DNA from: Pseudomonadota bacterium
GTDB taxonomy: Bacteria > Pseudomonadota > Alphaproteobacteria > Micropepsales > Micropepsaceae
Assembly (NCBI GenBank): GCA_021804785.1
Contig: JAJZGY010000001.1
Span: forward strand, 1 to 64,000
DNA length: 64,000 nucleotides
Reading direction: 5' to 3'
Positions 4,553 through 34,331 of the stretch are shown here, piece after piece. Positions within the stretch are counted from its first letter, which is position 1. Each line of letters opens with the position of its first letter. The translations under genes and the position numbers were made by a program. The notes below the pieces were generated by a model. The model did no database searches, had not been told where the DNA came from, and worked only from the letters and a program-made list of their open reading frames with translations.

Positions 4553-4750
4553 TGCACACCTCTTGCTTGGAGCTAAACGTGGTCCTGCCAGTCTGGTCCG
4601 TCCACAACTCCGAGCACGAACCATCCGCTGGCCAAGCTGAACACGACATGAACGCTAATCAATCTGACAAGGTTTGAGGCAAATCAAGCGCACGCGCAAT
4701 TGACCTCACGTCGCTCTGAAGGCGTAGTAGTAAAAATTCGGGGGAAGATT

Positions 4751-6058
4751 ATGGAGCTTGTTTCGGGGCGTTGGAGCAACTGGTCGGGCGGGGTTCGCTG
4801 TAAACCGCGTCAGGTTATGGCGCCACGCGAGGAAGTGGAGCTTGCCGCGGCCATTCGAACGGCCAGGGGATGCGTACGGGCGCCGGGAACCGGCCACTCT
4901 TTCACGCCCATTTGTACCAGCGATGACACGCTTTTGGACCTTTCAGCGTTTCAGGGGCTAGCCGGCGTCAATCATGAGGCCCAGAGCGCAACCTTTCGTG
5001 CAGCCACACCGTTGTGGGCAGTAGGTCCAGCCCTTCATGCCCAAGGTTACGCCCTGGCGAACATGGGCGACATTGATCGGCAGACTGTCGCAGGTGTTGT
5101 CGCCACCGGCACGCATGGCACTGGCCGCAGCCTGGGAAGCCTGTCAGCCCAGGTGACCGGGTTTCGGCTGATCTGCGCCGACGGTGAAGTGCTCCGCTGC
5201 TCGGCGTCCGAAAACTCCGAGATCTTCGACCTGGGACGGGTGTCGATCGGAACCTTTGGCGTCATGAGCGAGATCACGCTCAGGGTTCTTCCTGCCTACA
5301 AGCTCGTCGAGCACAACTTCGCGCTACCGATTGAGGAACTATTCGAGCGTCTGGACAGCCTCATCGTCGAAAATCGTCATTTCGAGTTTTTCTGGTTTCC
5401 CTATGCCAATACGGCAGTCTGTAAATCGCTGAATCTCAGCACCGCTGAGGCACCAGCTCCCCGTACAGCCGAACAGATGTATGCCCGAGGTGAAGTCAGT
5501 GGGTCATTTGATATGCGAACCTTCATCGCGATCAATGAAGTACTGCCATTCGCGCCCTTTCTGCTTGAGGGCGCACACCGTCTCTGTTCCCGGCTGATGC
5601 CCGGGCCGGACAAGGTGCGTTGGAGTTACGAGATTTTCCCCAGTCCGCGAACGGTGCGCTTCAATGAAATGGAATATGCCGTGGCGTTCGAAGATGGGCC
5701 GGCGTGTCTCAAGCAGATTGTCGATCAGATCCGTGCCAAGCGTATCAATACCGGGTTTCCCATCGAGTACCGCATCGTGAAAGGCGATGACATCGCCTTG
5801 AGTCCATTCTACGGGCGTGATAGCGCGACTATCGCTGTCCACCAATACCGTAAGGTTGACACCACTGCGCTGTTCTCCGCCTGCGAGGAGATATTCAAGC
5901 AATTTGGCGGTCGACCGCACTGGGGCAAACGCCATAGCCGGACCGCTGCCGACTTGGCGCAGATATATCCCCAATATGAGCGGTTTGTGGGCATGCGGGA
6001 AAAGCTTGATCCTCGCGGTCGCTTTCTCAACGCGCATTTGAGGGCGCTCTTTACATAG
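4751..6058 (+). CDS. FAD-linked oxidase, D-arabinono-1,4-lactone oxidase family
   Basis: RAPGTGHSFTPICTSDDTLLDLSAFQGL FAD-binding start; HWGKRHSRTAADLAQIYPQYERFVGMREKLDPRGRFLNAHL C-terminus characteristic of the ALO family. Confidence 0.88.
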   Translation: MELVSGRWSNWSGGVRCKPRQVMAPREEVELAAAIRTARGCVRAPGTGHSFTPICTSDDTLLDLSAFQGLAGVNHEAQSATFRAATPLWAVGPALHAQGYALANMGDIDRQTVAGVVATGTHGTGRSLGSLSAQVTGFRLICADGEVLRCSASENSEIFDLGRVSIGTFGVMSEITLRVLPAYKLVEHNFALPIEELFERLDSLIVENRHFEFFWFPYANTAVCKSLNLSTAEAPAPRTAEQMYARGEVSGSFDMRTFIAINEVLPFAPFLLEGAHRLCSRLMPGPDKVRWSYEIFPSPRTVRFNEMEYAVAFEDGPACLKQIVDQIRAKRINTGFPIEYRIVKGDDIALSPFYGRDSATIAVHQYRKVDTTALFSACEEIFKQFGGRPHWGKRHSRTAADLAQIYPQYERFVGMREKLDPRGRFLNAHLRALFT

Positions 6059-6200
6059 TACGTAAAGATATGAGGGCCGGCCTGCCTATGGCATATGCAA
6101 GGCCTCCTGCGTGACCCGCTTCCAGGATCATGGCCGAGACTGGTGTACTTTGCCGCCACGGCACGGGGCTGGTGCACAGTGCACTGCCGTGCTTTCCGGC

Positions 6201-6575
6201 TTACCGACCGCGGTCCCCCGCTTCCGACGCTGGGGTATCCAGCCGGCGATAGAAGCAGCTTCGTGCGCCTGTATGACAGGCCGGCCCTTTCTGGCGAACC
6301 CGGAAAAGCAGGGTGTCGCCATCGCAGTCGATGCCGGCCTCAACCAGTTCCTGGGTATGGCCGGAGGTTTCACCCTTGCGCCATCTTTCGCTGCGGGAGC
6401 GAGACCAGTAGGTGAGCTGGCCCGTGCGCAGGGTTTCCGCGAGCGTCTGGTAATTCATCCAGGCCATCATCAGAACGTCCCCGTTTTCTGCATCCTGTGC
6501 GATCACGGGGACAAGGCCATCGGCGTTGAAGTTGACAGCGGCGAGGAACGCGCTGACCGATAGGGTGTCGCTCAT
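6201..6575 (-). CDS. hisI: Phosphoribosyl-AMP cyclohydrolase
   Basis: [24 protein letters not shown] ... [18 protein letters not shown] ... [28 protein letters not shown]. Confidence 0.95.
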
Positions 6576-7726
6576 AGCAGGCGCGCCATTCGTTCAAATC
6601 CCTGACCTAGATCGTCTATGAGATCGTCGACGTCTTCGAGTCCGGCATGGACCCGCACCACTGTGCCATCGCCTGGCCACGGCCGCGCAGTACGTACAAT
6701 ATGAGCTGGCGTGATGAGGCTTTCAAATCCACCCCAGGACCAGCCCATACCGAAGAGCTTGAGTCCATCCATGAACGCGGCCAGTGCGGCATGGGACAGG
6801 GGCTTGAGTTCGATGGCAAAGAGGCCGCAGGCCCCCTTGAAGTCACGCTTCCAGATCGCATGCCCGGGATCGCTGTCGAGCCCGGGATGCAGGACCCGCG
6901 TGACTTCCGGTCGTGCCGAAAACCAGCGGGCGAGCTTTAACCCGTTCTGTTCATGGACGGGCAGTCGACGTGACAGAGTGCGCAGCCCCCTTAGTGCCAG
7001 AAATAGGTCATCTGCCGAAGCAAACAGTCCGAGATCGCCGTGGGTATGTGTCAGACGCTCGGCATGGCTGGGATTGGCACAGACATACCCCATCATCAGG
7101 TCGGAATGCCCGCCGATATACTTGGTCACGGACTGAATGGACAGATCGACGCCATACGCCAAAGGTTGAAAATACAGTGGGGTCGCCCAGGTGTTGTCCA
7201 TCAAAACGGATGCGCCGCGGCGATGGGCGACATCGGCAATGGCGGGAATGTCCTGGATTTCGAACGTGAGCGATCCCGGGGATTCACAAAAGATCGCGCG
7301 TGTATTGCTGCGGAAGAGCGCGTCGATGCCGTTGCCGATGCATGGATCGAAGTAGCTGGTCTGCACGCCGTAACGCGCGAGGACGCGGTCACAAAAATTG
7401 CGGGTAGGAAAATAGGCACTGTCGCTGACCAGCAGGTGATCTCCGGCGCGACACACAGCTAGGATTGCGGTGGTGATGGCAGCAAGGCCAGATGGCGTCA
7501 CCACCGTGGCAGCGCCTTGCTCAAGGGCATTGATGGCGGTTGTGAAGCTCTCAGAGGTTGGAGTGCCACGGCGACCATAAACATATGGCGCAGTGCCATC
7601 CTCGAGGGTTTCAAGATCTGGCATCAGGAAGGTCGAGACGCGGTAGACCGGGGTCGATACCGCACCATGATAGCGCGCGGGCTCGCGGCCGAGATGACCT
7701 GTAAGAGTGCCGGGCTTATGGCTCAT
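6572..7726 (-). CDS. metC: PLP-dependent cystathionine beta-lyase
   Basis: Cys/Met metabolism PLP enzyme: [61 protein letters not shown]. Confidence 0.9.
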
Positions 7727-24377: not shown

Positions 24378-24407
24378 GCTTGGGCTCGTGTTCTGGTCAG
24401 CCCAAGC
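24378..24407. repeat. Perfect 9-bp inverted repeat with 12-nt loop (gcttgggct ... agcccaagc)
   Basis: Read directly from sequence in the pyrG to DUF3126 intergenic region; no U tract. Confidence 0.55.
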
Positions 24408-24760: not shown

Positions 24761-25516
24761 TCAGTGCGAGGCGGACGTAAATTCGGCCAAAAGCTGCCCA
24801 ACACCCTGTGCGATCTCTCGCCACTGGCTTAAATAGGCCCGTTTGAAGCGATAGCTGAGGACGAGATCGTGTCCGAGGCGCAGGTCGCGCATGCAATCGG
24901 GAGCAAGGTCGGTGGCGGCCATGCGCCAACAGCGCAGCACTATGGTCCGGCCATGGTATACGCCCACGAACAGGTCCTGGCCTCTATAGCCATTATCGCT
25001 GCGGAAGCTGTATTGGGTGAGACCAAAGGGGCCGGCCTGACCCTGCGGGCGAGTGACGAAGGTCAGGAGCACTCTGCGCAGTTGTGCAGGCTCGGACAGT
25101 GCCAGGTCATCGGCCCAGATGCGCAGATGCACCACCTGCGAACGAGCGCTGTCATCTGCGAATTGGTGTGCCTCAGCCAGGCTGAAGCCACGAAAATCCG
25201 GCATCAGCGCAGCAAGCGATACGCGACGGTGTTGGCCGCCCTGTCGCTCGGCCGAATAAACGATGTAATTGGCCGGGATGAGAAATCGTTTGCCGCCAAC
25301 ACTGAGAGGCACCGGCCGGGTGACCGGAGTGGGATCCGGCCGGGATTGAATCCAGGCAATCGGAGCCGGAAGAATATAATACAGTAAAAATAGTGCAAAA
25401 ATAGCGATGACAATCAGGCCAAACCAGAGCAGGGTCGGCCAGCCAGAATGCGATTGTACCGTTTTAGGGCATTCGCAATTCTGTCCTGACCCGCTGAGCG
25501 CGATCATCCTGCCCAC
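24761..25516 (-). CDS. Hypothetical single-pass membrane protein
   Basis: TM segment TLLWFGLIVIAIFALFLLYYIL followed by soluble domain; no family recognised; start uncertain. Confidence 0.6.
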   Translation of the reverse strand: MGRMIALSGSGQNCECPKTVQSHSGWPTLLWFGLIVIAIFALFLLYYILPAPIAWIQSRPDPTPVTRPVPLSVGGKRFLIPANYIVYSAERQGGQHRRVSLAALMPDFRGFSLAEAHQFADDSARSQVVHLRIWADDLALSEPAQLRRVLLTFVTRPQGQAGPFGLTQYSFRSDNGYRGQDLFVGVYHGRTIVLRCWRMAATDLAPDCMRDLRLGHDLVLSYRFKRAYLSQWREIAQGVGQLLAEFTSASH

Positions 25517-27129: not shown

Positions 27130-27660
27130 ATGCCTCTCTATGCCATTGATGATATCCAGCCGGAACTTCCCGAGGGCCGGGACTTTTGGGTTGCGCCTGA
27201 TGCCACGCTGATCGGAAGGGTACGCCTCCAGAGGCACGCCAGCGTCTGGTTCGGCGCGGTACTACGAGGTGACAATGACTGGATTACGGTCGGCGAGAAC
27301 AGCAATGTGCAGGACCTGTCGGTTATTCATACCGATTATCATCAGCCCACGACGATAGGCCGTGATGTCACGGTAGGGCACAATGTGATCCTTCATTCCT
27401 GCACCATTGGCGATGGCTCGCTGATCGGAATGGGCTCGGTCATCCTCAACGGAACTGTGATCGGCAAGAATTGCCTTATCGGCGCCAATACCCTGATACC
27501 AGAGGGCAAGATAATTCCGGACGGAGCAATGGTACTCGGGCAGCCGGGACGGGTGGTACGCACGCTCAACGAGACTCAATTGGCTGTACTCAAGGCCTCG
27601 GCAGAGGTTTATGTGCACAATTACCAGCGCTTCCGGGATCGGCTGAAGTTGATTGCCTAG
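27130..27660 (+). CDS. Gamma-class carbonic anhydrase family (left-handed beta-helix hexapeptide) protein
   Basis: [90 protein letters not shown]. Confidence 0.93.
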
Positions 27661-27699: not shown

Positions 27700-30408
27700 T
27701 TGGGGAAGGGGGGTGGAGTGGCTTTGCGGCTCAAAAGAAAGATAACAGGACGTTTTGTCATGAGACTGAGATTTGCGCTCACGCTGTGGGCGATCTTGGC
27801 GATAGTGTCAGCGGGAACCGCCGCCGCAGCGGCTGGTGCGCCCAAAGGGCGCCTTCCAACGCTCGCAATACCCACCCATTACAGTCTCACCCTGACTATT
27901 GATCCGAAACAGGCCGGATTTCACGGTCACGACGAAATCAGCATCGTGACTGCACACCCTCTGACGTCGCTTTGGCTCCACGGGCAAGGCCTCAGCATTG
28001 AGCGCGCATCGGTACGCTTGGCCAGTGGCCAGACGATTGCGGCCCATTACCAACAGGTAGACCCATCAGGTGTCGCCCTGCTGCGCTTTGCGCAGTCCCT
28101 GCCGGCAGGGCGGGCCACACTTCTGTTCGACTATCATGCCCCCTTCAGTCACGTATCCAATGGGCTGTCCCGGATCGTGCAGAAGAGAAACGCCTATGCG
28201 GTCTCGCAGTTTGAGGCTGACGGCGCGCGACGCATGTTTCCATGCTTCGATGAGCCGGGTGACAAGGCCATATTCTCCCTGGCCATCAACGCGCCGAAGG
28301 GCGACGTGGTGATTACCAACAGCAAAGTCACGTCAAGAAATGCAACAGGCGGCGGCATGGTGCACTGGGTCTTTGCCGACACGCCAAGTATCCCCCCCTA
28401 TCTCCTGAATCTGGATGTGGGTCCATTTGACGTCATCAACATAGGATTCATTCCTGCCGACAAATGGCGCCACTATCCTCTGGCGTTGCGTGCCATAGCC
28501 CCCAAAGGCGAAGCATGGCAGATGCGCTACGCCCTATCCTTCACACCAAAACTCGTCCTTGCGCTTGAGCGCTATTTCCAGATCGGCTTTCCCTTCAGCA
28601 AACTGGACATAATCGCAGCTCCCGACTTTGCTGCGGGAGAAAGGGAAAATGCTGGAGTAATCACACTACGCGGACGCTTCTTGCTTATGGGGCCTCACGC
28701 ACCGCTTATACAGCGGCGCGACAGCCTTCTGGCGCAGGCGCGTGAGCTGACGCAGCAATGGTTCGGTGACCTGGTAACGCCGCTGTGGTGGAACGATAAC
28801 GCTATCAAGGAAGCTTTTGCCGGCTGGATGTCGGCAAAGCTCTCCAACTGGGTCATGCCGGATTTTGCATTATCGCGCCACACTCTCGATGGCGGACTTA
28901 AGGCAATGGACCGCGATCAATTGCCCGCGGTGCGTGCGATCAACCATCGCGTCAACAGCGTTGCTGACGCAACCCCGGTTTATGATGCAGGCACCCGACA
29001 AAAAGGGGCTGCGATCCTGGCGATGGTTGAAAATTACGTCGGTGCTGAGCCCTGGCAGCGGGCCGTGCATGCATTTTTGCTAAAATATGCCGGCCATACT
29101 GCGACCCAGGCGGATTTCATCGCGACGATCGCGGCAGTGACCCATCATCCAGAACTGATTCAGACGCTTCGCAGTTACCTGAACCAGCCCGGCATACCGG
29201 ACATGAGCGTTGTCACGCGCTGCAGCGAATCTCCGGTGCTGACGGTTGTGCAGTCGATGTATGCGCCGGTCGGGCTCATGGTATCTGACCGGCAATGGCA
29301 GGTGCCAATGTGCGTGTCGGATGGCAAAGCTGCACGGCGCTGCCGCATAATCGGTCGAACCGCAGACATTCACCTGGGCAGCATCTGTCCTGCCTACGTC
29401 ATGCCCAATGCGCTCGGACTGGGCTATTATCGCTTCACCTATGACAGCCGGGGCTGGGATAGGCTGCTCAAGGCAGCACCCAAGCTGGATGCGGCAGACC
29501 AAATCACCCTCTTTGCCAATCTGCAGGCGGCGCAGGGGGCTGGCCAGCTTGATCCCCGAAAGTTTTTTGAGGCGGTTAAAGTGTTGGCGCCAAGCGCCAG
29601 GTGGGACCTGATCCAATTGATGCGACGGGCGCTGCGGGCAGACCGACTGAACTTGTTGCAGCCGGCAGACATGAATGCGTATGAAACATTCATCCGCAAG
29701 AGTTTTGGTCACAGACTGGAGCGACTCACGCTGCGGAACTTCGGTTCACCGAGCGAAATCTTGACCCGCGCGGCACTGGCGCAGATCCTGATTGTGGAAG
29801 GACATGATCCGCACACTCTTGCCGTACTCGCGAAGGCAGCCCGCGTCTATGCCGCCTCGGATGGGCACAATCTCGGAGTGTTGCCACCCAGCCTGGCCAG
29901 ACTGGCGATGCGGGCAGGGGTCATGGTGTATGGTTCCGCCTTCGCGAATTCCCTGATCAATGGCTTTCTGGCGTCGCCGGATGATTATTTTCACCGCAGC
30001 GTCATTTACGCACTGATGGGATCAACGGATCCAAATCTTCTTAAGGGATTTTTTGATCTGTCATTGTCTCCGCAAATGAACACGAGTGACATACGCTACC
30101 TCTTTGCCGATGCGAGCAACCAGCCGGTAGCCCGCGCGCAACTATGGAGCTGGTATAAGGAACACTATCAGTCGCTCGTAACGCGTATTTCCGGAGAAGG
30201 TATGCTGGTCGTGCCGAGTCTCTTCAGCAACGCCTGCAGTACAGATTTGAAAACGCAGCTGGCAGATTTCCTGGGGCCTAGAGCAAAGACGATCCCCGGG
30301 CTTTCTCACACGTTGATGCTCGCCGAGCAGCGCATTGATCAGTGCATTTCCTTGCGCGAGTCAAAAGGCCGGGAAATTCGCGAAGCGCTGCTCGCTGCGG
30401 CTCGATAA
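27700..30408 (+). CDS. M1-family aminopeptidase-like protein with N-terminal signal peptide and ERAP1_C-like C-terminus; active-site residues replaced
   Basis: QFEADGARRMFPCFDEPGDKAIFSLAINAPKGDVVITNS and QQWFGDLVTPLWWNDNAIKEAFAGWM are M1 signatures; HExxH reads RELTQ, GAMEN reads GEREN. Confidence 0.88.
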   Translation: MGKGGGVALRLKRKITGRFVMRLRFALTLWAILAIVSAGTAAAAAGAPKGRLPTLAIPTHYSLTLTIDPKQAGFHGHDEISIVTAHPLTSLWLHGQGLSIERASVRLASGQTIAAHYQQVDPSGVALLRFAQSLPAGRATLLFDYHAPFSHVSNGLSRIVQKRNAYAVSQFEADGARRMFPCFDEPGDKAIFSLAINAPKGDVVITNSKVTSRNATGGGMVHWVFADTPSIPPYLLNLDVGPFDVINIGFIPADKWRHYPLALRAIAPKGEAWQMRYALSFTPKLVLALERYFQIGFPFSKLDIIAAPDFAAGERENAGVITLRGRFLLMGPHAPLIQRRDSLLAQARELTQQWFGDLVTPLWWNDNAIKEAFAGWMSAKLSNWVMPDFALSRHTLDGGLKAMDRDQLPAVRAINHRVNSVADATPVYDAGTRQKGAAILAMVENYVGAEPWQRAVHAFLLKYAGHTATQADFIATIAAVTHHPELIQTLRSYLNQPGIPDMSVVTRCSESPVLTVVQSMYAPVGLMVSDRQWQVPMCVSDGKAARRCRIIGRTADIHLGSICPAYVMPNALGLGYYRFTYDSRGWDRLLKAAPKLDAADQITLFANLQAAQGAGQLDPRKFFEAVKVLAPSARWDLIQLMRRALRADRLNLLQPADMNAYETFIRKSFGHRLERLTLRNFGSPSEILTRAALAQILIVEGHDPHTLAVLAKAARVYAASDGHNLGVLPPSLARLAMRAGVMVYGSAFANSLINGFLASPDDYFHRSVIYALMGSTDPNLLKGFFDLSLSPQMNTSDIRYLFADASNQPVARAQLWSWYKEHYQSLVTRISGEGMLVVPSLFSNACSTDLKTQLADFLGPRAKTIPGLSHTLMLAEQRIDQCISLRESKGREIREALLAAAR

Positions 30409-31514: not shown

Positions 31515-33302
31515 TTAATATACACGGGCCTTGGGTTTGATGTACTCGATGTCGTTCGACAGCGTATAACTGTGCACTGGACGATAGTCGATGCTGACAT
31601 CTCCGGATTTGATGTCGAGCCAAGCCAACGTATGCTTCATCCACTTGGTGTCATCACGTTCCGGAAAGTCTTCCCGCGCGTGCGCACCGCGGCTTTCCTG
31701 GCGATTGACGGCACCAGCTACGGTGACGGCGGCAAGGGCAACAAGATTTTCAAATTCGAGGGTCTCCACTAGGTCCGAATTCCAGATCATCGAGCGATCA
31801 GACACGCGAACGTCATCCTTTGCGCGATAGATCTCCGCAATTCGCCGCTTTCCGGATTCCAGAGTCTCTCCCGTCCGAAATACCGCAGCGTCTTCCTGCA
31901 TCGCGCGCTGCATCTGCATACGTAATTGCGCGGTCGGCGTGCTACCGCTGGCATGACGCAGCCGATCCAGTCGCTCCAGCGCTTCCTGCCCAGCATCCTT
32001 GCGCAGGGCCGCCTGCTTTTGATTGGGCGCGAGGTTCTTGGCACATTGCATACCTGCGGCCTTACCAAACACTACAAGGTCGATAAGAGAATTAGAGCCG
32101 AGACGGTTGGCGCCGTGAACCGACACGCAGGCGGCTTCGCCAACCGCCATCAATCCGGGAATTACGGTGTCGGCATTGCCGTCTTTCAAAGTCAGTGCAT
32201 CTCCCATGTAGTTGGTCGCGATACCACCCATATTGTAATGCACCGTGGGAAGCACGGGGATGGGTTCCTTGGTGACATCGACCCCAGCAAAAATGCGTGC
32301 GCTTTCAGAGATGCCGGGCAGTCGTTCATGGATGATCTTGGGATCAAGGTGGGAAAGATGCAGATGAATGTGATCCTTGAGAGGTCCAACGCCACGACCC
32401 TCGCGAATTTCCATGGTCATGGCCCGGCTAACCACGTCACGCGAGGCCAGATCCTTGGCACTGGGGGCGTAACGCTCCATGAAACGCTCACCTTGCGAGT
32501 TGGTCAGATAACCACCTTCGCCCCTTACCCCCTCTGTGATCAGAACACCGGCACCATAAATACCAGTGGGGTGAAACTGCACGAATTCCATGTCCTGCAG
32601 CGGGAAACCAGCCCGCAGCACCATAGCGTTACCGTCTCCGGTCTGGGTGTGGGCTCCTGTGCATGAGAAGTATGTGCGTCCATAGCCGCCGGTCGCAATG
32701 ATGACACGGTGGGAGCGGAAACGATGGATGGTTCCGTCATCGAGATTCCAGGCCATCAATCCGCGCACTGCGCCGTCTTCGACGATCAGATCGAGGGCGA
32801 GGTATTCAATGAAGAAGTTGGTGTCATGCTTTACACACTGGCCATACAGCGTGTGCAACATCGCATGGCCGGTACGGTCGGCCGCGGCGCAGGTACGCTG
32901 GACGATTCCCTGGCCAAAATTCGAGGTCATGCCTCCAAAGGCGCGCTGATAGATCTTGCCGTCCTCGGTACGGCTGAATGGCACACCAAAATGTTCAAGT
33001 TCGTAAACCGCCTCAGGCGCATTTCGGCACAGAAATTCTATGGCGTCCTGGTCGCCTAGCCAGTCTGAGCCCTTGACGGTGTCGTACATGTGCCACCGCC
33101 AGTCGTCCTCGCCCATATTGCCAAGCGAAGCCGCAATCCCGCCTTGCGCCGCCACGGTGTGACTGCGGGTCGGGAATACTTTGGTGATGCAGGCAGTTTT
33201 GAGCCCACTGGCAGCCGCTTCGAGAGTGGCCCGCAAGCCGGAACCTCCAGCTCCAACTACGACAACGTCATAGGTGTGATCGATGATCTCGTAAGCGGTC
33301 AT
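31515..33302 (-). CDS. sdhA: Succinate dehydrogenase flavoprotein subunit
   Basis: [57 protein letters not shown]. Confidence 0.97.
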
Positions 33303-33321: not shown

Positions 33322-33696
33322 TCAAAGCGCGATGCGGTACATGGCGAATAGGCTTGCCGCGGCTACGGCCCAGGCGAATGCCTTATTGAGGACTAGAAGA
33401 ATGATTTTTTTTCCATCGTGATGGACGTAATCCTCGATCACAACCTGTACGCCAAGCTGCATGTGGACAACGGAGGCAATAACAAACAGCACCATCAGAA
33501 CCGCGGACACTGGGGCATGCAGAAAAGCCAGCACCTGGTCACGCGACGCACCGACGAGATTGAGCATGGAAAAACCCAGCCAGCACGACAAGGGCACAAG
33601 AGCTGCTGCGCTTACCCGCTGGCGCCAGAAATGCTCCACCCCTGAATGGGCGCTGCCCAGTCCTTCGACCTGGGAAAGCGGGGTGTGATAGGCCAT
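33322..33696 (-). CDS. sdhD: Succinate dehydrogenase hydrophobic membrane anchor subunit
   Basis: [45 protein letters not shown] ... [38 protein letters not shown]. Confidence 0.93.
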
Positions 33697-34112
33697 CACG
33701 TACCTCCGAACAAGAACAGGCCGTCGAGATAAAAGCCCCCGGCCAGAACGATGGAAAGAATGATGATCGCAACGCTTAGCCGATTGGCAAAGCGCGGCGC
33801 AAAGCCATAGCCGAAATCCCAAGCCAGGTGGCGCACGCCGTTGAGCAGGTGATAGCAAAGCGACCATACGAAGCCGAACACAAAAAACTGCCCGATCCAG
33901 GTGAAGACCAGGTCGCCAAAGGTGGCATAGGCATCCGGGCCGCTGGCCAATGCCATTAGCCACCAGGCGAGACCCGCCAGACCAATGCTCAGTCCGACAC
34001 CGGTCGCGCGATGCACGATCGAGGTCATCATCGTCGGGCTCCAGCGATAGATCTGGAGGTGGGGTGAAAGCGGGCGCTGACGCGCCCCGGAGCGAACGGC
34101 GTTATCGGCCAT
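33696..34112 (-). CDS. sdhC: Succinate dehydrogenase cytochrome b556 subunit
   Basis: RPLSPHLQIYRWSPTMMTSIVHRATGVGLSIGL ... HLLNGVRHLAWDFGYGF. Confidence 0.95.
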   Translation of the reverse strand: MADNAVRSGARQRPLSPHLQIYRWSPTMMTSIVHRATGVGLSIGLAGLAWWLMALASGPDAYATFGDLVFTWIGQFFVFGFVWSLCYHLLNGVRHLAWDFGYGFAPRFANRLSVAIIILSIVLAGGFYLDGLFLFGGT

Positions 34113-34331
34113 GGAAACTTCCGGAAAGCTGGACAAACCGGGGCGGAGTGTAGGGGCCTAAGCCCTCAAGTCAACGTGCGGATGAAGACAGGATGAGCCG
34201 GGCCTTGCCGTCGGATTGTCGCACCGAAGGCACCCCAACCTCGGCTCGGCCCTAAATTGTCCCTAGGGTCAGGGGCGCTGATTGCCTCTGGTGCCTTGCG
34301 GCCACATCGAGAATCCGGCACTGCTGTAAGC

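Follow-up and report, generated by a model that had tools for sequence, protein, structure and literature searches.

The gene considered here raises the question of whether a secreted M1 aminopeptidase homologue that lacks key residues of its active site is still useful to the cell, and which part of the protein carries that use. It lies in the window, the whole stretch of 64,000 nucleotides that was analysed. An earlier note on this DNA had described it as a probable pseudoenzyme.

The gene, its fold and its altered active site

The M1 gene begins with ATG 27760, stops at 30408 and encodes 882 aa. The earlier note had read an intact frame of 902 codons. The frame is indeed intact, but its start is almost certainly ATG 27760 and not TTG 27700, because the N-termini of the close orthologues in genomes G020 and G005 align there. 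A similar hydrophobic leader is present in both of these orthologues, and the window protein is presumably exported to the periplasm, as far as a leader judged by eye can indicate. The features of the gene, all on the plus strand, are as follows.

27760..30408, +, pseudo-M1 aminopeptidase gene, 882 aa, with Pfam M1_N, Peptidase_M1 and ERAP1_C; start matched by orthologues
27760..27834, +, putative signal peptide, residues 1-25 (MRLRFALTLWAILAIVSAGTAAAAA), assigned by inspection
27835..28413, +, domain I, residues 26-218 (Peptidase_M1_N), from Pfam with approximate boundaries
28207..28215, +, QFE motif, residues 150-152, site for the substrate N-terminus; retained in the window, QFG in G020
28414..29199, +, domain II, residues 219-480, former catalytic domain, extra constraint lost
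28636..28650, +, GEREN, residues 293-297, replacing GAMEN (sequence and alignment)
28741..28755, +, RELTQ, residues 328-332, replacing HELTH; both zinc His gone, Glu329 kept
28801..28812, +, AIKE, residues 348-351, replacing WLNE; Glu351 kept in the window, Gln in G020
28996..28998, +, Arg413 (cga) in the TRQKGA segment, replacing the catalytic Tyr
29200..29439, +, domain III, residues 481-560, model-based with approximate boundaries
29440..30405, +, domain IV, residues 561-882 (ERAP1_C), from Pfam with approximate boundaries

The Pfam domains M1_N, Peptidase_M1 and ERAP1_C match in that order with 99.2, 131.4 and 116.1 bits, far above their cut-offs of 25.8, 27.7 and 38.2 bits. In phmmer, puromycin-sensitive aminopeptidase and ERAP1 match the protein across almost its full length. 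Domain order and the four-domain fold place it in the ERAP1-like subfamily of MEROPS family M1. Structure modelling, which the earlier note had proposed, yields a confident AlphaFold2 model with an intact four-domain M1 fold (pLDDT 91.2, pTM 0.91, 57 sequences in the alignment). Foldseek gives a TM score of about 0.91 to ERAP1, ERAP2 and IRAP, and 0.91 to 6t6r. The TM score to open-form ERAP1 (6mgq) is only 0.82 and the model corresponds to the closed ERAP1-like form; the alignment behind it is dominated by active enzymes, and the shape of the predicted pocket is not informative on whether the pocket is open or closed. Given this confidence and these scores, the scaffold is predicted to be whole. 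Pfam and NCBIfam matches alone would label the gene an aminopeptidase.

All residues and codons cited in the earlier note are confirmed in their places. At the HExxH(18)E zinc site the window protein reads RELTQ(18)E. Arg328 (cgt, 28741-28743) and Gln332 (cag, 28753-28755) take the places of both His ligands, while the third ligand, Glu351 (28810-28812), is retained. The exopeptidase motif GAMEN (G-x-M-E-N) reads GEREN, with Ala-Met replaced, and Arg413 stands in place of the catalytic Tyr. The claim that all catalytic signatures are replaced holds for both His, for Ala-Met of GAMEN and for Tyr, but is too strong as a whole, since the general base Glu329, Glu296 and Asn297 of the GAMEN motif, the QFE motif and Glu351 all remain. 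To our knowledge, no M1 enzyme works without both His and the catalytic Tyr, and the window protein is probably devoid of aminopeptidase activity.

A single loss at an orthologous locus

Of the 96 genomes of the order that were searched, 29 contain a match with an E value of 1e-60 or lower. The alignment holds the window protein and 29 further orthologue sequences, two of which are fragments from one genome. The zinc site is readable in 28 order-wide orthologues, and exactly one of the 28 is defective like the window protein. This orthologue, from G020 (JA6.bin32), is 77% identical to it and has RELTQ, GETES and the change of Tyr to Arg, so that the RELTQ/GE.E./Tyr-to-Arg pattern, which the earlier note suggested looking for in related genomes, does recur. 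It has lost further residues, QFE reading QFG and Gln standing in for the Glu that serves as third zinc ligand, and the set of site residues kept therefore differs between the two proteins. Sequencing or assembly error is rejected as the source of the changes, because the independent genome G020 carries RELTQ and the change of Tyr to Arg in different codons (window/G020 cgt/cgc, cag/caa and cga/cgc).

The orthologue of G005 (Alphaproteobacteria bacterium REEB323; loci L004 and L133) resembles the window protein in its signal peptide, its upstream neighbours and its 70% identity. It differs in that GAMEN, HELTH, LNESFA and FDAITY are all intact, and it is predicted to be active. In the tree, the window protein and that of G020 are monophyletic (100/100) and G005 is the sister of this dead pair (100/100). 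The dead form is carried by only these two species, both uncultivated and related to each other. Some 80 loci from other phyla, more distant than these, all have HExxH wherever the stretch is covered. An Eremiobacterota M1 homologue (L106, about 4745-7550) has an intact HExxH and a degenerate GAMEN (SALEQ), possibly a separate change of specificity. The exact DNA pattern for RELTQQWFG occurs solely in the window's genome in a sample of 395 genomes of the class, from which G020 is absent. Genome G005 also contains a second, partial M1 C-terminus with 66% identity to the window protein on a small contig (G005:C495:2-340), which may come from a strain variant or from contamination (8%).

The gene order gamma-carbonic-anhydrase-like gene, M1, SdhA is the same in every inspected locus that is long enough; the G005 contig stops after M1 and only the upstream neighbours are comparable there. 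The flanking genes in the window are the following.

27130..27660, +, gamma-carbonic-anhydrase-like protein, conserved upstream neighbour, from locus comparison
31515..33302, minus strand, SdhA, conserved downstream landmark, from locus comparison

The SdhA landmark fixes the orthology of the M1 loci. The only other M1 protein in the window's genome is PepN, with an intact site (TIGR02414, 1220 bits), and no active near-duplicate of the window gene is left in this genome, which is 96% complete. No 16S gene turned up in a search of the same genome. With the locus orthologous, the gene order conserved and no active near-duplicate present, genome comparison shows that the enzyme, as predicted from its motifs, was inactivated in place a single time, in the ancestor shared by the window species and G020, without a local duplicate. 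Two other differences were seen around these loci. SdhC and SdhD of the window (33322-34136) share only 60 to 68% identity with their G020 counterparts, whereas SdhA next to them in the same operon shares 98%, a marked contrast. In G005 (L133, 6179-7525) an extra FAD-dependent oxidoreductase-like gene lies between pyrG and the homologue of the gene at 24380; it is absent in the window and in G020.

Selection after inactivation and the displacement of constraint

A codon model on three taxa puts omega at 0.109 for both branches that follow inactivation and at 0.098 for G005, and a relaxation test on the three species finds no difference between the dead branches and that of G005 (LRT 0.36). An omega of 1 on the dead branches is rejected with an LRT of 539, at a cost of 270 log units. 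Three trios of active orthologues have omega values of 0.119, 0.076 and 0.119, and the dead pair falls inside this range. The dN/dS measurement called for in the earlier note thus gives 0.11 after inactivation, no higher than in active orthologues. Neutral simulation over the same dS (a total of about 1.3 since the split of window and G020) predicts 25 to 29 stop codons in each lineage and an identity of 15%; the dead pair has no stop in 2 x 882 codons and 77% identity. Most neighbouring genes evolve more slowly, with omega values of 0.01 to 0.09. One other neighbour, at 24761-25516, encodes a conserved unknown protein with no NCBIfam match; its omega of 0.19 makes it faster than the pseudoenzyme, and it keeps to the same gene neighbourhood throughout the genus.

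When outgroups are added in a quartet, omega is about 0.27 to 0.29 on the stem, 0.10 on the dead branches and 0.05 on G005, and the dead branches appear to have roughly twice the freedom of the G005 branch (LRT 4.4 to 4.6); support is weak, and the stem value and the lower G005 value are indicative only, because dS to the outgroups is saturated. These values fit, without proving it, a phase of rapid change when the site was lost and a return of constraint afterwards.

Catalytic residues are thus lost in an intact gene in two species, and purifying selection followed the loss. That the window protein is a pseudoenzyme, with metal and catalytic residues lost and the gene still under selection, is well supported at the level of sequence. 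The view in the earlier note that an uninterrupted gene of this kind points to selection for a role other than peptidase gains support from the low omega, the intact predicted fold and the pattern common to window and G020.

The remaining constraint has a distinct distribution. Among 25 active orthologues 105 alignment columns are invariant, and nine of these, with G005 agreeing, changed jointly in the dead pair (211, 295, 300, 328, 332, 348, 408, 413 and 850). Six of the nine lie in or adjoin catalytic motifs (295, 328, 332, 348, 408 and 413), and column 300 is three residues past GAMEN. In active trios the active-site segments are the most constrained part of the protein; omega there is 0.018 and 0.038 for the closer trios and 0.085 for the distant one. 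The same segments have omega 0.083 in the dead pair, against 0.106 for the remainder. The clearest sign comes from comparing domains. In the dead pair, differences occur in domain II at 1.23 times their rate in domains III-IV, whereas this ratio lies between 0.19 and 0.78 in every one of the 276 active pairs; against active pairs of similar identity Fisher p is 4e-8 to 0.012, the pairs being mutually non-independent. Longest unchanged runs lie mostly in domains I-II in active pairs. The two longest of the dead pair lie elsewhere in the protein.

29203..29328, +, residues 482-523, run of 42 residues identical in the dead pair, domain III; 0 nonsynonymous and 17 synonymous differences
29971..30078, +, residues 738-773, run of 36 residues identical in the dead pair, domain IV; 0 nonsynonymous and 19 synonymous differences

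Unchanged runs of this length are unexpected by chance (permutation p 0.003), and together the two contain 36 synonymous and 0 nonsynonymous codon differences. The longest run identical across window, G020 and G005 is not significant (p 0.15). Recombination as the source of the two runs is rejected, because synonymous divergence within them is ordinary. The comparison shows that, in the dead pair, the weight of constraint on the coding sequence has passed from domain II, once catalytic, to domains III-IV.

Proposed role and relation to known pseudoenzymes

Catalysis was lost and yet the protein is strongly preserved, which suggests a second job that does not need catalysis. The reading that we favour, at somewhat better than an even chance, is that of a selected periplasmic pseudoenzyme, inactivated in place, whose role is non-catalytic binding, probably via domains III-IV. 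A single-copy secreted M1 aminopeptidase of the ERAP1 type lost its active site at its own locus before the two species parted. The losses that they share comprise the two zinc His, Met of GAMEN and the catalytic Tyr, and the four-domain fold that is left has remained under strong purifying selection. The second, non-catalytic role that selection would maintain today may already have been present in the active ancestor. Most likely the protein, once exported, would bind a periplasmic partner (a protein, a long peptide or an envelope component) without cutting it. The contact would be made by domains III and IV, with segments 482-523 and 738-773 taking part. We put at slightly under an even chance the fuller claim that a hidden function in domains III-IV of an exported M1 protein outlived catalysis, the enzyme having died in place with no duplicate nearby and selection having passed from the active site to a surface used for binding.

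The main rival places the working part in the old active-site cleft, which would bind peptides or protein N-termini uncut, as proposed for yeast Tma108 (PMC11266112). The closed ERAP1-like form of the model, the QFE motif, Glu296, Asn297 and Glu329 of the window protein, the identity of segment 326-346 in the dead pair and the low omega that the active-site segments still have are all consistent with it. G020, however, lacks the N-terminus anchors (QFE to QFG, Asn of GAMEN to Ser), which speaks against N-terminus binding as a function common to the pair. Segments 346-360 and 391-420 diverge within the pair as well, and constraint on domain II is down relative to domains III-IV. The distribution of constraint points to domains III-IV rather than to the old site for peptide N-termini, and we consider cleft binding unlikely, at roughly one chance in five. 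A remodelled pocket (Glu294, Glu296, Arg328, Glu329, Gln332 and Arg413) that runs a zinc-free reaction or holds another metal is improbable. Such a changed enzyme would explain why both species have Glu294, Arg328, Gln332 and Arg413 although the codons have diverged, and why Glu296 and Glu329 are retained. Against this, the new residues are retained in 7 of 9 cases, no higher than the 77% background, adjoining pocket residues diverge (Glu351 to Gln, Arg or Thr at 295), and domain II is the less constrained part.

Another rival has the protein regulate an active M1 enzyme of its own cell or serve as its partner subunit, as alpha-MPP does with beta-MPP; such a role is common among pseudopeptidases (PMC11266112). 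The sole candidate partner, PepN, is only 24% identical and of a different subfamily, which makes such a pairing very improbable. PepN is cytosolic, whereas the window protein has a signal peptide. Least credible of all is a decaying gene met before its first stop codon. Catalytic residues are still being lost in G020 and the dead form is confined to two species, as decay would have it, and the earlier note had named intact orthologues together with relaxed dN/dS as its mark. The first half of this is seen, in that the other orthologues have intact sites, but dN/dS has not risen to neutrality, which excludes simple decay; codon models and the absence of stops refute it in both lineages.

Should the favoured reading of a periplasmic binding protein be correct, comparison of the dead pair with its 70%-identical active sister would directly expose a non-catalytic role of M1 proteins. 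Catalysis was lost at an orthologous locus while this sister survives, so the shift of constraint can be measured. Functions of M1 proteins beyond cutting become a testable comparison, pointing to domains III-IV.

The ERAP1/IRAP (oxytocinase) and puromycin-sensitive type of M1 enzyme shares the four-domain fold with the window protein over its whole length; the latter differs in lacking the HExxH zinc histidines, GAMEN and the catalytic Tyr, and in being bacterial with a signal peptide. TAF2 also has a non-catalytic M1-like domain, but is a nuclear TFIID subunit and very distant. The pseudoenzymes described so far are mostly duplicated copies of a gene that is active. Our literature search found no bacterial M1 pseudoenzyme and nothing specific on in-place pseudoenzymes or TAF2. 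The pseudometallopeptidase is a kind already known; within the literature searched, a bacterial, exported, in-place M1 pseudoenzyme with a measured displacement of constraint appears to be new.

For M1, a 2024 review of metallopeptidase pseudoenzymes gives only yeast Tma108 (PMC11266112). Like the window protein, Tma108 is an M1 homologue classed as a pseudopeptidase, and it acts by binding (PMC11266112). It differs in keeping HExxH and all zinc ligands, with one substrate-binding residue missing, and in being eukaryotic and ribosome-associated. In Gone early (M13), inactive ADAMs (M12), FtsHi (M41) and alpha-MPP (M16), metal and general-base residues are replaced and the intact fold is kept for binding or assembly (PMC11266112), which is the feature they have in common with the proposed pseudoenzyme. 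These proteins belong to other families and are mostly eukaryotic gene duplicates, whereas the window protein is an in-place bacterial conversion.
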